Part shown: positions 48,884 through 58,860 of the stretch, in pieces
How the letters are laid out: every line of letters starts with the position of its first letter
Numbering within the stretch: the stretch's first letter is position 1
Source: Pannonibacter carbonis
GTDB taxonomy: Bacteria > Pseudomonadota > Alphaproteobacteria > Rhizobiales > Stappiaceae
Direction of reading: 5' to 3'
Length of the DNA: 64,000 nt
NCBI RefSeq assembly: GCF_003012935.1
Contig: NZ_PUDR01000011.1
Span: 1-64,000, forward strand
Notes under the pieces: generated by a model
What the model was told of the DNA's origin: nothing
The model's input: only the letters and a program-made list of their open reading frames with translations
Databases searched by the model: none
Program-made: the position numbers and the translations under genes

Positions 48884-49480
48884 TTACCCCATCGGGTTGG
48901 CGAACCAGGCATAGGCGATGAGGCCGATCATGCCGGCAAGGATGCCGCCGAGAAAGGCGACAAGCACCGGACCCCAGATCACGCCACCCCGTGCCGCAGC
49001 GGCAGGCTGACCGTTGATGGCCGCCTTCATGCGCTTGTCGAGCCAGTCGCCCTCAAGGGCCCGCTCGCGCTCGATGATGCGCTCGGCGATATATTCCGTG
49101 ACGCAGTCGGCCATGTCGTCGATGTCCGCGGTTTCGAGGATCACGACACGGCCAAGCCTTGTGTCCTTCAGGAAGCGGTAGGTGCGCCGGTCTCCGGCCA
49201 CGGCAATGTGGCTTGTCATGTCGATCCACAGGCGCGGCGTCGTGCCCGGGACGATCTGGAACGAGAACTGGTCGTCGTTCTCGGGCACTTCCTTGAACAC
49301 ATCGGTCAGCTCGTCGGCGAGCATCTCCAGCCGCGTGCGTTCGGTCTCCTGCAGCTCGATCACCACATCGGCCCGCTCGGCCTCGCCAAGGCGGACCTTG
49401 CGGATTGCATCGCGCAGGTTTCGCACCTTTGCGTGGGGCACGACATTCGTCGGTGAACCGCTGGTCTGTTCGTTGGCCAT
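48884..49480 (-). CDS. Conserved hypothetical protein with C-terminal membrane anchor
   Basis: 198 residues, family not recognised. A soluble N-terminal domain (about 1-160) rich in charged residues includes LRDAIRKVRLGEAERADVVIELQE and a beta-rich middle (PGTTPRLWIDMTSHIAVAGDRRTYRFLKDT, about residues 78-107). A single transmembrane helix (about 168-190, GPVLVAFLGGILAGMIGLIA) ends four residues from a short tail, giving tail-anchored topology. The ATG at 49480 has a weak site. TTAA-N7-TTTACCC at 49511 is CtrA-like. Confidence 0.8.
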   Translation of the reverse strand: MANEQTSGSPTNVVPHAKVRNLRDAIRKVRLGEAERADVVIELQETERTRLEMLADELTDVFKEVPENDDQFSFQIVPGTTPRLWIDMTSHIAVAGDRRTYRFLKDTRLGRVVILETADIDDMADCVTEYIAERIIERERALEGDWLDKRMKAAINGQPAAAARGGVIWGPVLVAFLGGILAGMIGLIAYAWFANPMG

Positions 49481-49510: not shown

Positions 49511-49529
49511 TTAAGCGGACTTTTACCCA
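49511..49529. promoter_or_regulatory. CtrA-like site upstream of the 198-residue protein gene
   Basis: TTAA (49511-49514) - N7 - TTTACCCA (49522-49529) differs from the CtrA consensus TTAA-N7-TTAACCAT at three positions in the second part. More TTAA elements at six-base spacing occur at 49600-49626. It is suggestive only. Confidence 0.35.
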
Positions 49530-49652: not shown

Positions 49653-50267
49653 TCACCGATCCGGCCGGATGATCGGCAGATGCGGGCCGACGCTGTCCGG
49701 CAACAGGCCGGAAAGGCGCGGGTCATCGATGACTTCCAGCGCGCGACGGTAAGGCGTGAACCCGCTGGCACAATAAAAGCCAAGCGCCGCCGGACTGTCG
49801 CCAGTGCAAGTGTGCACATAGAAGCGCCGCGTTTCGGGCCGCGCCCAGGCCATGTCCAGCCCCGCTTCCATCAGCCAACGGCCAAGGCCGCGACCTGTTT
49901 CCTGCGGCACCAGGCCGAAAAAGGCCAGTTCCACATTGGCCGGATCAGCATAGTCAAGTTCAAGCAACCCCACAGGCCGGCCATCCGCAACGGCAACGTG
50001 GATGGTCCGGGTCTCTTGCGCCAGGATCGCAGCAAGCCGGCCACGCGGCATCAGGAGGCGGGAGAACCAGAGCCATTCGTCGCCAATGGCGCGAAACAGC
50101 GGCAGGTATGTTTCTGGATCCGGCTTTTCCCAACGGGTCAACGTGACGCCCTCCGGAGCGCGCGAAAGCCGCGGGGCCGGCCGGGCAAACATCTCGAGAT
50201 AGGTGACAACAAAGGCGATCTTGCCGGGCGGAAGATCTGTGTATCCGTTCAAATTGAGGGCGGTCAT
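49653..50267 (-). CDS. GNAT-family N-acetyltransferase
   Basis: 204 residues. The acetyl-CoA-binding motif lies in GLVPQETGRGLGRWLMEAGL (about 119-138), followed by RFYVHTCTGDSPAALGFYCASGF, a conserved GNAT end with Tyr. Family members of this length acetylate amines on small molecules or proteins. ATG 50267 has AGGAC nearby; a longer start at 50318 is not supported. The 145 bases between this gene and the divergent 92-residue gene hold a full CtrA consensus site. Confidence 0.9.
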   Translation of the reverse strand: MTALNLNGYTDLPPGKIAFVVTYLEMFARPAPRLSRAPEGVTLTRWEKPDPETYLPLFRAIGDEWLWFSRLLMPRGRLAAILAQETRTIHVAVADGRPVGLLELDYADPANVELAFFGLVPQETGRGLGRWLMEAGLDMAWARPETRRFYVHTCTGDSPAALGFYCASGFTPYRRALEVIDDPRLSGLLPDSVGPHLPIIRPDR

Positions 50268-50374
50268 GAAAAGTCCTGGAGGGTTCTGGCGAGTCCTTGG
50301 GGGCGCAAACAAGACCATCGCTTAGCACCCGCCGCCGACAACCGACAACCGGCATTTGACGCAGATTGCGACCA

Positions 50375-50393
50375 TTAACCCTGTGTTAACCAT
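50375..50393. promoter_or_regulatory. Full-consensus CtrA-binding site
   Basis: TTAA (50375-50378) - CCCTGTG - TTAACCAT (50386-50393) matches the CtrA consensus TTAA-N7-TTAACCAT at every position. It lies 20 bases before the ATG of the 92-residue gene and 108 bases upstream of the divergent GNAT start. Confidence 0.8.
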
Positions 50394-50412
50394 ATGTGCC
50401 CAGCATGAAGGC

Positions 50413-50691
50413 ATGGCAAAGATCGGAAACAATTTCGGTAACAAATTCGGAGGCAGGTCCGGCAACAAGTTCGGGCAGCAGAAAGAACGTGTCACTCTCA
50501 AGGACTACAATGACGCCTGGGCGACTGTCCGCAGAAAATCGATCGAGAAGACCAAGGCGTTGTCGCAGGAAGTCCAGAACTCAATCTACCAGACGACTGT
50601 GACGGTCAGCCAGCAGCAGACATATGATGCCTTCCAGGGCAACAATATCAGCACCGCTTCAGCACTGTCCCGTCTGAACATCCTGGTCTGA
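50413..50691 (+). CDS. Hypothetical 92-residue protein with CtrA site at its start
   Basis: Not recognised. The N terminus has a Gly/Asn/Phe repeat (NNFGNKFGGRSGNKFGQQ), followed by a helical region (VTLKDYNDAWATVRRKSIEK) and a polar, Gln/Ser/Thr-rich C terminus that ends ASALSRLNILV. It has no signal peptide or membrane helix. ATG 50413 is chosen because an upstream start at 50356 would place the perfect CtrA site inside the coding sequence; AAGG sits just before ATG. The gene is convergent with flhA, 35 bases away, so a flagellar or cell-cycle role is plausible but inferred. Confidence 0.75.
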   Translation: MAKIGNNFGNKFGGRSGNKFGQQKERVTLKDYNDAWATVRRKSIEKTKALSQEVQNSIYQTTVTVSQQQTYDAFQGNNISTASALSRLNILV

Positions 50692-50726: not shown

Positions 50727-52880
50727 TCAGATTGATCCGATTGTCTTCAGCTTGACGCGCGGATGCACCTCGTTCTGGCTCATCACGGTCGTGTGGGCGC
50801 GGAAGCGTTCGACAATCGAGCGGACGAAGGGACGGGTTTGCGGTGAAGTCAGAAGCACCGGCACTTCGCCCTGCTGCGCCGCCTTTTCAAAGGCATCACG
50901 CACCAGCGTGACGAACTCCTGCAGTTTCGACGGCTGCATCGCCAGCTGACGGTCATCCCCTTCCCCGACAATCGCCTCGATGAAGGACTGCTCCCATCGC
51001 GGGGACAGGGAGACAAGCGGCAAATACCCCCCCGGCGACATGTTGGCCGCACAGATCTGGCGGGCCAGCCGCGTGCGCACATGCTCGGCGATGGTGTTGG
51101 TATTGCGGGTGAAGCCGGCGGCTTCGGCGACGCCTTCCAGAATTGTGCCGAGATCGCGCACGGAGATGCGTTCGCCCAGCAAGGTCTGCAGCACGCGCTG
51201 GATGCCAGAGACGGTGATCTGGGACGGGATCAGGTCCTCGACCAGCTTGGCCTGCTCCCCTTTCAACTCCTTCAGCAACTTCTGCACATCGGCATAGGTG
51301 AGCAGTTCGGCGACATTGGCCTTGATGGTCTCGGTCAGATGCGTCGACAGGACGGTCGCGGGATCGACAACGGTGTAACCGCGAAGGGACGCATCCTCGC
51401 GATAGATCGCCTCGACCCAGGTGGCCGGGAGGCCGAAAGTCGGCTCGGTGGTGTTGGTGCCGGGGATCTTCACCTGGCCGCCAGCCGGATCCATGACCAT
51501 GAAACGGTTGGGGAACAGCATGCCCTTGCCGGCATCCACTTCCTTGACCTTGATCGTGTAATCATTGGCGCCGAGCTGAATGTTGTCGAGGATGCGCACC
51601 GGCGGCATGATGATGCCCATATCGGCCGCGACCTGCCGGCGCAGGGCCTTGATCTGCTCGGTGAGTTGATCCGGCTGCCCGGTCTGCTGGCCGTTGATCA
51701 GGGGCAGGAGCGCATAGCCAAGCTCGATGCGCAGTTCGTCCATCTTGAGGGCGTCGGTGATCGGTGGTTCGGGAACCGGCTTCGGGGCGGCCTCGACAGC
51801 CTTGACCGCCGCAGCCTGGAAGGCCGTCACCTTTTTCGCGTTGCCCGCCTTGACCGCCAGCCAGCCGGCCAACGCCGCAAGCCCCAGGAACGGCACCATG
51901 GGAATGCCGGGCAGCATTGCCAATGCCACCATGACGAAGGACGACATGCCCAATGCCTTGGGATAGCCGGTGAACTGCGCGACCAGCGCCTTGTCGGCCG
52001 AGCCGCTGACGCCAGCCTTGGAGACGAGAATGCCGGCGGCAGTGGAGACGATGAGCGCAGGGATCTGCGACACCAGACCGTCGCCCACGGTCAGGATCGT
52101 GTAGTTCTGCGCCGCTTCGCCAAAGGTAAGCCCCATCTGGGCCACACCAATGACGATGCCGCCGATGACATTGATGAAGGTGATGAGCAGACCGGCGATG
52201 GCATCGCCGCGCACGAATTTCGAGGCACCGTCCATGGAGCCAAAGAAGGTGCTTTCCTCCTCCAGTTCCTTGCGCCGGCGCTTGGCCTCCGTCTCGTCGA
52301 TCAGTCCGGACGACAGGTCGGCATCGATGGCCATCTGCTTGCCGGGCATGGCGTCCAGGGTGAAGCGCGCTGCAACTTCAGCGATACGCCCGGAACCTTT
52401 GGTGATGACGATGAAGTTCACGATCACCAGAATGGCGAAGACGATGATGCCGATGACGAAGTTTCCGCCCATGACGAACTTGCCGAAGGACTGAATCACC
52501 TGACCGGCTGCCCCGGTCCCCTCATGTCCTCCGGCCAGGATAAGACGGGTCGAGGCCAGGTTGAGTGCCAGGCGCAGCATCGTCGAGATCAGCAGGACTG
52601 TCGGAAAGGACGAGAACTCAAGCGGCTTCTGGATGAACAGGCCCGTCATCAGGATCATCACCGACAGGATGATCGAGATCGCCAGAAAGAAGTCCAGCAA
52701 CATCGCCGGCATCGGCATGATGAGCATCACGAGGATAACCATCACGCCGACCGCCAGGCCGATATCGCCCTTGCGGATGGAATCCAGGAACTCGCCAGCC
52801 GACGGCAAGCCGAAGCTGGGCACGGCCGGCGGGCGCGGCGGTGTCGGCGGTGTCGGCTCGTTGGCGGACGTATCGGTCAT
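50727..52880 (-). CDS. flhA: Flagellar export-gate protein FlhA
   Basis: 717 residues. The N-terminal half (about 40-340) has eight transmembrane helices and the FHIPEP region, seen here as FLAISIILSVMILMTGLFI and FSSFPTVLLISTMLRLALNLASTR (regions at about 62-107). The cytoplasmic C-terminal half (about 360-717) is the nonameric ring that docks chaperone-substrate complexes. It is the last gene of the minus-strand operon fliF-fliG-fliH-fliN-flbD-flhA, 31 bases after flbD. Confidence 0.97.
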   Translation of the reverse strand: MTDTSANEPTPPTPPRPPAVPSFGLPSAGEFLDSIRKGDIGLAVGVMVILVMLIMPMPAMLLDFFLAISIILSVMILMTGLFIQKPLEFSSFPTVLLISTMLRLALNLASTRLILAGGHEGTGAAGQVIQSFGKFVMGGNFVIGIIVFAILVIVNFIVITKGSGRIAEVAARFTLDAMPGKQMAIDADLSSGLIDETEAKRRRKELEEESTFFGSMDGASKFVRGDAIAGLLITFINVIGGIVIGVAQMGLTFGEAAQNYTILTVGDGLVSQIPALIVSTAAGILVSKAGVSGSADKALVAQFTGYPKALGMSSFVMVALAMLPGIPMVPFLGLAALAGWLAVKAGNAKKVTAFQAAAVKAVEAAPKPVPEPPITDALKMDELRIELGYALLPLINGQQTGQPDQLTEQIKALRRQVAADMGIIMPPVRILDNIQLGANDYTIKVKEVDAGKGMLFPNRFMVMDPAGGQVKIPGTNTTEPTFGLPATWVEAIYREDASLRGYTVVDPATVLSTHLTETIKANVAELLTYADVQKLLKELKGEQAKLVEDLIPSQITVSGIQRVLQTLLGERISVRDLGTILEGVAEAAGFTRNTNTIAEHVRTRLARQICAANMSPGGYLPLVSLSPRWEQSFIEAIVGEGDDRQLAMQPSKLQEFVTLVRDAFEKAAQQGEVPVLLTSPQTRPFVRSIVERFRAHTTVMSQNEVHPRVKLKTIGSI

Positions 52881-56409: not shown

Positions 56410-58026
56410 TTATGCCGCCTCATCCAGCCAGCCGCGCACGATGGTCACGGCCTCGGTCGGGTAATCTTCGATCATTGCGCCAACCTTGGCGATGGACGAG
56501 GCCTGCAGCGCGCCTTCGCGCTTGGCCTCTTCCAGCCACTCGATCACGATGCCGTCGTCCTCCTCGACCAGTTCACCGGCCGGCAACTCAGACTGGGCGA
56601 CCAGCGTTCCATCCGGAGCGATGACCAGTTCCTGGGCCGTCTTTTCTTCCGGCGTCACGATCCGCTTGAGCAGCGGGCGCACCACGAAGAGCAGCAGCAG
56701 CAACGAGATCAACATCAGCACGCCAAGCTCGGCAAAGCGCATGATGTCGTCGCGGGTGAAGTCAAACATGCCGGCTTCCGCCGTGTCGAAGTCCGGCTCA
56801 GGCGCGGTGGCAAAGCGCAGGTTCACGACCTCGACCACATCGCCGCGCGCCGCATCAAAGCCAACCGCCGAACGTACCAGCACGGAGATGCGATCCAGGA
56901 CCTCCTGCGGGCGCGGTGCATATTGCATCACGCCTTCCGCATTGGGCTCATAGATCCCGTCTACCAGCACAGCCACCGAAAGGCGTTTGACGCGGCCGGC
57001 CTCGATGACTTCGGTCCGGATCGCCTTGGACACCTCGAAGTTGACGATCTCCTCGGTCAGGCTGGATCCTTCGGTGTCGCCGCCGGCCCCGCCCGCATCC
57101 GCGTTCGGGATCTGGTTGCCGGCCGTCACACCGGCCTGCTGGTTGGTGCGGGTGGTGTTTTCTTCCTTGCTCTGGGTCGAGCGAACGACCTGGCCCTCCG
57201 GATCGAAACGCTCCTGGGTTTCGGTGATCCGGTTGAAATCAACGTCGGCTGCGACACGGACGCGGGCGCGACCCGGCCCGACCACGCTGTTGAGGATTTC
57301 CTCGATCTGGTTGCGCAGCCGCTGCTCGACCTCGAAGGTCCGCTCCTGAATCTTGCCGGCGGACATGTTGTCCGGATTGTCATCTCCGACGGTGGCCAGC
57401 AGGCGGCCGGCATCATCCACGATCGACACGCGCTCAGGCGTCAGGCCGTCAACAGCTGCGGCGACCAGATGCTGGATGGCCCGGATCTCGCTTCCACCGA
57501 GGGAGCCACGAACCTTGATCGCAATCGAGGCAGACGGCGGACGGACGTCGCGCTGGAACAGCTGGCGCTCCGGGATCACCAGATGCACACGCGCCGAGAC
57601 AATGCGGTCGATCGAACGGATCGTGCGCGCCAGTTCGCCTTCAAGCGCACGCAGGTGATTGATGTTCTGGACAAAACTCGTGGCACCGAGCGTATCGGAG
57701 CGGTCAAATATCTCGTAGCCGACCGAGCCTCCCGTCGGCAGGCCCTCCTCGGCAAGGCGCATGCGGGTGCGGGCAATCTGATCCTTCGGAATGAGGATGG
57801 TCGCCCCCTCCTGGCGCAACTGATAAGGGATCGCCAGTTGCTCCAGATTGTTGACGATCTGGGCGGAGTCCTCGATCGTCAGGTTCGAGTAGAGTTGCCC
57901 CATTTCCGGAGCGGTCACCCGGAAGATGATGAAGGCGAACATCCCGACCAGAATTGCCGCCACCGCGCCCATCGCGGCGATGCGCGTTGGACCCATGGTC
58001 CGAATGAATTCGATCAATCCGTTCAC
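56410..58026 (-). CDS. fliF: Flagellar MS-ring protein FliF
   Basis: 538 residues: transmembrane helix 1 (about 18-40), periplasmic ring-building domains RBM1-3 (about 45-430) including EGELARTIRSIDRIVSARVHL and the FEVEQRLRNQIEEILNSVVG segment, transmembrane helix 2 (about 441-460) and a short C-terminal FliG-binding tail (DDGIVIEWLEEAKREGAL). GTG 58026 (VNGLIEFIRTMG) has a GAGCGGG site upstream and matches relatives; an ATG-like start at 58086 would add 20 unlikely residues. It is first in the operon with fliG, fliH, fliN, flbD and flhA. A CtrA-like site is 107 bases upstream. Confidence 0.96.
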   Translation of the reverse strand: MNGLIEFIRTMGPTRIAAMGAVAAILVGMFAFIIFRVTAPEMGQLYSNLTIEDSAQIVNNLEQLAIPYQLRQEGATILIPKDQIARTRMRLAEEGLPTGGSVGYEIFDRSDTLGATSFVQNINHLRALEGELARTIRSIDRIVSARVHLVIPERQLFQRDVRPPSASIAIKVRGSLGGSEIRAIQHLVAAAVDGLTPERVSIVDDAGRLLATVGDDNPDNMSAGKIQERTFEVEQRLRNQIEEILNSVVGPGRARVRVAADVDFNRITETQERFDPEGQVVRSTQSKEENTTRTNQQAGVTAGNQIPNADAGGAGGDTEGSSLTEEIVNFEVSKAIRTEVIEAGRVKRLSVAVLVDGIYEPNAEGVMQYAPRPQEVLDRISVLVRSAVGFDAARGDVVEVVNLRFATAPEPDFDTAEAGMFDFTRDDIMRFAELGVLMLISLLLLLFVVRPLLKRIVTPEEKTAQELVIAPDGTLVAQSELPAGELVEEDDGIVIEWLEEAKREGALQASSIAKVGAMIEDYPTEAVTIVRGWLDEAA

Positions 58027-58132
58027 GTTTGCCCGCTCAACTTGTTTGCCCCGCCGCAGACACCAGGGGAATCGAATCCCCCGCATTGCCGACGCGCCAT
58101 TGTCCGATAGGCAAAATTTGCCCGCCAGAAGG

Positions 58133-58147
58133 TAAACAAGTTATTAA
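58133..58147 (-). promoter_or_regulatory. CtrA-like site upstream of fliF
   Basis: On the minus strand TTAA (58147-58144) - TAACTTG - TTTA (58136-58133), followed by CC, matches TTAA-N7-TTAACC with one change. In Caulobacter the fliF operon is directly activated by CtrA. The rest of the 376-base gap 58027-58402 holds the sciP terminator and one TTAACC element at 58239. Confidence 0.5.
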
Positions 58148-58841: not shown

Positions 58842-58860
58842 TTAACGCAGCGCTAACCAT
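58842..58860. promoter_or_regulatory. Strong CtrA-like site upstream of sciP
   Basis: TTAA (58842-58845) - CGCAGCG - CTAACCAT (58853-58860) matches TTAA-N7-TTAACCAT in all but one base. It lies 164 bases upstream of the sciP start and 91 bases beyond the flgD stop, in a distinctly AT-rich stretch (58694-58870). Confidence 0.6.

Follow-up and report, generated by a model that had tools for sequence, protein, structure and literature searches.

A small gene beside flhA in Pannonibacter carbonis and its probable activation by CtrA

The 92-residue gene that adjoins flhA in the window (the whole stretch of 64,000 nucleotides that was analysed) is probably activated by CtrA and would encode a small, cysteine-free, mostly helical and flagellum-linked protein of a new family. 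The claim of CtrA regulation, which is drawn from the comparison of genomes, is strong as comparative evidence goes. The features of the gene and of its surroundings are shown in Table 1.

Table 1. Features of the window that bear on the 92-residue gene and its regulation.
Feature	Positions	Strand	Basis
Full CtrA box TTAA-N7-TTAACC	50375..50391	+	Exact match; box with 0-1 mismatch in 68/69 gene-bearing genomes
-10-like element CAGCAT	50401..50406	+	A at -11 and T at -7 of the predicted start
Predicted transcription start, on the A of the ATG	50413..50413	+	Inferred from box offset 38 and R. sphaeroides spacing
92-residue protein, unnamed family	50413..50691	+	ORF, homologues, dN/dS
flhA, convergent neighbour	50727..52880	-	TIGR01398, 900 bits
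GNAT acetyltransferase, divergent neighbour	49653..50318	-	PF00583
CtrA-like box, one mismatch	58131..58147	-	About 45 bp above the start of ORF 56410-58086

The CtrA box and the surroundings of the gene

The first-pass annotation had placed a full-consensus CtrA box at the open reading frame (ORF), and this was borne out by the exact match of TTAACCCTGTGTTAACC (50375..50391, + strand) to the box. The sequence also agrees exactly with the CtrA full-motif consensus TTAA-N7-TTAA(C), as given in the available part of PMC7200025. The stretch 50375-50393 reads TTAACCCTGTGTTAACCAT, 19 bases lie between position 50393 and the ATG at 50413, and the distance from the start of the box (50375) to that ATG is 38 nt. 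The box is the sole exact full CtrA site of the 64-kb window, where TTAA-N7-TTAAC was matched once against 0.03 matches expected and where 2 of 100 shuffles gave any match. The same pattern gave 32 matches across the genome against 6 for the reversed control. The longer TTAA-N7-TTAACC gave 17 matches (two of them overlapping, which makes 16 sites) against none for the reversed control. Two CtrA-like boxes with one mismatch each are also present on the + strand of the window at 49511-49527 and 58842-58858.

Exact TTAA-N7-TTAACC boxes lie 52 bp above a rod gene (PF00460), which we take to be FlgB, and 98 bp above flgI. Among the targets that could be assigned, these are the two of the 16 longer-box sites that stand above genes named flagellar by Pfam, and other such sites stand above a DUF2336 gene, an SLT-domain gene and a ParA-like gene. 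The box of the ParA-like gene (L158, G000:C6:36448; AAA_31, with weaker MipZ matches) is exact and lies 112 nt upstream. Full boxes overlap on both strands at L171/L172 (G000:C33:60498-60516), between the gene of a 195-residue protein that has no Pfam match and a divergent gene.

The position of the gene next to flhA was also confirmed, as the neighbour on the opposite strand is arranged tail-to-tail with it and matches TIGR01398. By gene order, the ORF 56410-58086 is presumably fliF, at the head of the run fliG-fliH-fliN-flbD-flhA; the FliH match in this run falls below its cut-off. The genome also has an FlbD of the Caulobacter type (NF050807). A 198-residue ORF at 48884-49480 (- strand) has no match in Pfam or NCBIfam, and its relatives adjoin the GNAT gene in several genomes.

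The search for homologues beside flhA that had been proposed was made in the bacterial family of the window. In 50 of the 69 gene-bearing genomes, no more than 100 nt separate the ends of the copy and of flhA. In 18 others (nine of g6, six of g7 and three of g2) the distance is 0.2-4.4 kb, and in G067 no flhA was seen in 11.5 kb. The copy and flhA are convergent wherever both fell in one stretch. Among the 51 genomes of g1, g4 and g6, 49 have the GNAT gene next to the copy and the remaining two have their copy at a contig end; G002 (g2) has two copies beyond its GNAT gene. In six g6 genomes (L215-L221), the copy is separated from flhA by 2-4.4 kb. A second partial FlhA-like stretch near the main flhA (G079:C4:265361-265516; 73% identity over 52 residues) is perhaps a fragmentary duplication.

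The genomes of g5 have no copy. A flagellar flhA is present in 15 of these 16 genomes, and 14 of the 15 have the GNAT gene no more than about 0.6 kb away. An exact TTAA-N7-TTAA is found in just two of the 15 flhA stretches of g5, and neither of them ends in CC. Because the g5 genomes keep flhA without the gene, the gene is dispensable for flagella in general and its role would be accessory.

The protein family and the conservation of the box

A single-sequence search identified relatives in 26 of the 87 genomes of the bacterial family. Profile A1 raised this to 56 of 87, and profile A2, which was built from more diverged copies, identified 43 of 87, including all 14 genomes of g7, 3/3 of g2 and 1/3 of g3. 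By A1 and A2 combined, 69 of the 87 genomes have a copy, and the 18 without one are all 16 of g5 and two of g3. A later profile (A5) aligned with A1 over about the first two thirds (probability 95.9%, E 6e-9). A2 and A5 give no direct match to the window's own protein, and the link to them runs via A1 (five g7 genomes, E 6e-5 to 7e-4), via A2 matches in g6 and via the profile comparison. A cut fragment with a stop in G066 was excluded. When the first profile was run across the class, the window's own genome was the sole one matched (1 of 240), and a match in G276 (L140, L190) was set aside as chance since it falls within the long frame of another gene, which reads to us like a type II topoisomerase.

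The 92-residue ORF is a real gene by comparison of its homologues. It is short and without a known domain, which could suggest that it is no gene; that reading is given next to no probability and is refuted by conservation, as the frame and the C terminus are conserved and dN/dS was about 0.02-0.33 in all 12 close pairs tested, which denotes purifying selection. An untranslated ORF had been named in advance as grounds for dropping the proposal, and these values speak for the gene. The absence of a known domain was upheld, since the 92-residue protein has no Pfam match even at E 10 and none in NCBIfam. Pfam likewise gave nothing for all 22 members of A1. The FliE, rod and flagellin models of Pfam and NCBIfam were unmatched by the 92-residue protein, and those of Pfam by the 22 A1 members. 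No convincing match for the family came from searches of Pfam, NCBIfam, PHROGs and PDB. In our searches of open papers, we found no account of this family, none that joins CtrA, leaderless mRNA and flhA, and none that joins Pannonibacter and CtrA. The window protein seems to belong, as one branch, to an undescribed motility-linked protein family.

The family shares an MxxxGN motif, a central N-x-x-W-x-x-x-R and a C-terminal end like R[LIV]N[ILV][ILV]V. The Gly/Asn/Phe-repeat N terminus described earlier is present in the window copy, but it does not hold as a family trait: the long repeat is peculiar to this copy, the other four copies of the genus begin with a shorter N terminus and are 80-84 residues long, and the longer N termini in part of g6 have a different sequence. 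No cysteine occurs in the 4949 residues of 56 copies (second copies included), where A, S, Q, N and T are frequent. The mean net charge of these copies is about +9, which is strongly basic; such a charge is unusual for an axial flagellar protein. The predicted model, from a two-sequence alignment, has residues 1-28 disordered and residues 29-91 in one long helix (mean pLDDT 71, pTM 0.38).

In 68 of the 69 gene-bearing genomes the copy is preceded by a box with no more than one mismatch, which is exact in 52, while 3.15% of random 110-nt stretches of other loci, intergenic and otherwise, hold such a box. The best copies of g1, g4 and g6 (51 genomes) have an exact box in 46 and a one-mismatch box in five. 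In g7 the box is exact in six of 14 genomes and has one mismatch in eight of 14. Poor versions of the box (3/4) or none are found in g2 and g3. Contrary to the tie between box and gene, nine second copies in g6 fail the box filter that is given below, and three of these nine (L033, L099 and L103) have a one-mismatch box at -61. The second copies of g6 (L098-L107 and related loci) stand in tandem with the boxed copy, upstream or downstream of it by genome, and are mostly without an exact CtrA box.

Promoter geometry and the predicted start

Sixty-eight distinct copies were taken at the outset, of which three shared a promoter with another copy and 12 failed the box filter (right half exactly TTAA, 30-75 nt). 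The 12 failures are the nine second copies of g6, L065 (promoter outside the stretch) and L086 and L092 of g2. The 53 distinct promoters that remained were aligned by anchoring at the CtrA box. An A is found at offset 27 from the box in 46 of the 53 promoters and a T at offset 31 in 44 of the 53, counts that are inflated by the relatedness of the genomes. Counted from a start at offset 38, these two bases stand at -11 and -7. In the window, the A is at 50402 and the T at 50406, and 23 nt separate the end of TTAA-N7-TTAA (50389) from 50413. By promoter conservation, the window promoter combines a 5' base of the box near -35 of the predicted start with a downstream -10 element. No site was detected at the gene start by a simple sigma-70 scan, which is in line with a CtrA promoter.

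In the available portion of PMC4287350, full CtrA motifs with the 5' base near -35 go with activation (-39 at ctrA P2), while -14 is a repressing position and half sites over the -10 go with repression. In the available portion of PMC6180460, the CtrA promoters of R. sphaeroides have 23-24 nt from the end of the site to the start and an invariant A at -11. The window promoter therefore resembles CtrA-activated flagellar promoters (the Caulobacter ctrA P2/full-motif group and R. sphaeroides fla2) in the same full site, the placement at -35 to -39 and the A at -11 (PMC4287350, PMC6180460, both as far as available). Two differences from R. sphaeroides were identified in the same portion of PMC6180460: its promoters have a G at -4 that is absent from the pattern of the 53 promoters here, and its leaders are 12-33 nt long, whereas the start codon of the window gene coincides with the predicted start.

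In 15 promoters the ATG lies 38-41 nt from the box start, so that it coincides with the predicted start or is at most 3 nt away from it. These short-spacing (class I) promoters are all five of g1, the single one of g4 and nine of g6. In the 33 other g6 promoters, the distance from the box to the ATG is 58-62 nt, and 31 of their leaders contain AGGA as counted by eye. AGGA is the core of the Shine-Dalgarno sequence. The predicted start lies 20-24 nt before the ATG in most of g6. The g7 promoters comprise one at -63, which was counted with the long-spacing class, and four more at -65. On the FlhA tree, which was built from 44 partial FlhA proteins of the 55 loci (11 loci were without a usable FlhA piece), the spacing class changes at least four times, and two of these changes are forced by well-supported branches. 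From this split of the promoters and its changes on the tree, the same CtrA core therefore appears to serve both with and without a leader.

In the genus Pannonibacter, the predicted start falls on the ATG and the mRNA is probably leaderless. A leaderless window gene driven by CtrA has a precedent because CCNA_01391 is a leaderless gene with a CtrA motif at -32 (PMC4287350, in the part available). Leaderless AUG starts are also known in S. meliloti, with 171 of 17,001 starts (PMC3616915, in the part available).

The first-pass annotation had offered two consequences of so close a box, a nearly leaderless transcript or blocking by CtrA. The sequence favours the former, with the predicted start on the ATG, and not the latter, as the box lies at an activating distance. 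If CtrA repressed the gene, RNA polymerase would start upstream of or inside the box and be blocked there. The closeness of the box to the ATG is in keeping with this, and so is the repression that CtrA half sites over the -10 exert in the available text of PMC4287350. However, the window box is a full site and not a half site, both spacing classes have their conserved -10 bases past the box at the distance that goes with activation, and the ATG is shifted while the box-to-(-10) geometry is held where a leader is present. Repression is accordingly judged very improbable, and the published CtrA geometry fits activation of the window gene. It is improbable, too, that the mRNA has a leader, with GAAGG at 50407-50411 serving as the ribosome site of a longer transcript. 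A purine run does stand directly before the ATG, but GAAGG is 1 nt from the ATG and is not kept there in the other class I promoters; a ribosome site at that distance is too close to pair.

Distant relatives and the proposed role of the protein

With profile A5, matches at E <= 0.01 were obtained in 25 of 397 genomes of the order, of which 16 are outside the bacterial family, and most of the outside matches are individually weak; the match in G237 (outside the family) belongs to a row of A5 itself. Fifteen of the 16 outside loci were examined, among them L173, which is a row of A5 and was recovered by its own profile. In eight of the 15 relatives, a CtrA-like box with no more than one mismatch was identified within 110 nt of a start codon, and in five of these eight it stands at -38 or -39, the distance seen in the window. 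Random 110-nt stretches taken from these loci gave such a box in 3.15% of cases; because as many as four start codons were considered per locus, a box was the more likely to be found. None of the distant relatives outside the family was found beside flhA, and their neighbours include ORFs that look to us like fabI, methylmalonyl-CoA epimerase and 3-hydroxybutyryl-CoA dehydrogenase genes.

Six of the 10 outside loci that were checked follow a YjfB-like gene (L176, L177, L179, L181, L182 and L185). The six upstream partners are on the same strand, have 64-72 residues (that of L176 counted from an internal Met of a longer ORF) and end 1-90 nt upstream, and three of them have their own box. For PF14070 (YjfB_motility), the L182 partner passes the cut-off (27.6 against 27 bits) and the L181 and L185 partners fall below it. 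The partners of L176, L177 and L179 gave no PF14070 match and were grouped as YjfB-like by alignment alone.

The PF14070 search matched 14 of 30 chosen genomes, six of them over the cut-off, and B. subtilis alone among 14 control genomes. It matched none in the window's own genome (G000), where a YjfB-like 65-residue ORF at G000:C4:85551 (L210, 85490-85742) was found by its 63% identity to a protein of G007 of the same genus, itself below the PF14070 cut-off. An exact box, TTAACCGGGCGTTAACT, which is among the genome-wide matches counted above, lies 61 nt upstream of this ORF. Of the 13 YjfB-like loci inspected in the bacterial family of the window, 12 carry a box within 130 nt that has no more than one mismatch.

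YjfB is an uncharacterized small protein in the flagellar sigma-28 sub-module in the available part of PMC11607428. The YjfB_motility proteins (PF14070, putative motility protein) are similar to the window protein in their small size and, in this genome and in relatives, in the CtrA-like box upstream. Their genes adjoin diverged relatives of the window protein in other families, and their C-terminal end (LDVTV/LDISV) is similar to that of these relatives. The window protein is unlike them in being longer, with a different conserved core and no Pfam match at E 10. The CP1-4 proteins of the Rhodobacterales fla1 cluster are likewise order-specific unknown proteins of a CtrA-controlled flagellar system and are needed for motility, but they belong to another order and another position, and the likeness is one of description (PMC12363192, as far as available).

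The flagellar link is suggested by the place near flhA, by the CtrA-type boxes in common with the rod gene, flgI and the fliF run, and by the YjfB-like pairing in relatives. The earlier proposal of a new flagellar component gains from this location, CtrA control and pairing, and the role in motility is itself a prediction from sequence. The gene could instead encode a CtrA-controlled protein of another swarmer-stage programme (surface attachment, pili or envelope) that stands beside flhA only as part of a stable CtrA region. The distant relatives in what look like non-flagellar surroundings and the absence of the gene from g5 genomes that have flhA are consistent with such a programme. The gene is near flhA in six genera of the family, however, and its relatives pair with YjfB-like genes, and we regard this alternative as unlikely.

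For a CtrA-activated, flagellum-linked protein, phosphorylated CtrA would bind 50375-50391 over the -35 region and recruit RNA polymerase, and transcription would start at or within a base or so of 50413. The leaderless mRNA would be translated from its 5' AUG. Under shared CtrA control, the protein would therefore be produced in one and the same period of CtrA activity as the products of the fliF...flhA run and of flgB/flgI. It would most likely act at the stage of flagellar export and assembly, as an accessory or exported small protein, with the YjfB-like small proteins. Its predicted disordered N terminus, lack of cysteine and richness in A, N, Q, S and T are traits consistent with a substrate of flagellar type III export, and an exported or export-associated role may be read from size, disorder and composition. 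A broader reading, which is held tentatively and is open to considerable doubt, is that a new superfamily of small CtrA-driven proteins in the order and the YjfB-like proteins form a two-part set that is exported by, or gates, the flagellar export apparatus, and that the mRNAs of the superfamily have repeatedly switched between leaderless and Shine-Dalgarno translation with the CtrA promoter core fixed.

The findings in this work provide a candidate function (motility) and a testable partner (YjfB) for an unannotated family that is present in 69 of 87 genomes of one bacterial family. They also point to a natural experiment in which leaderless mRNAs of some species and leadered mRNAs of their relatives appear to be transcribed from one CtrA promoter core. 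As the CtrA core is common to both types of mRNA, the effect of the leader on cell-cycle-timed expression would therefore be directly comparable.
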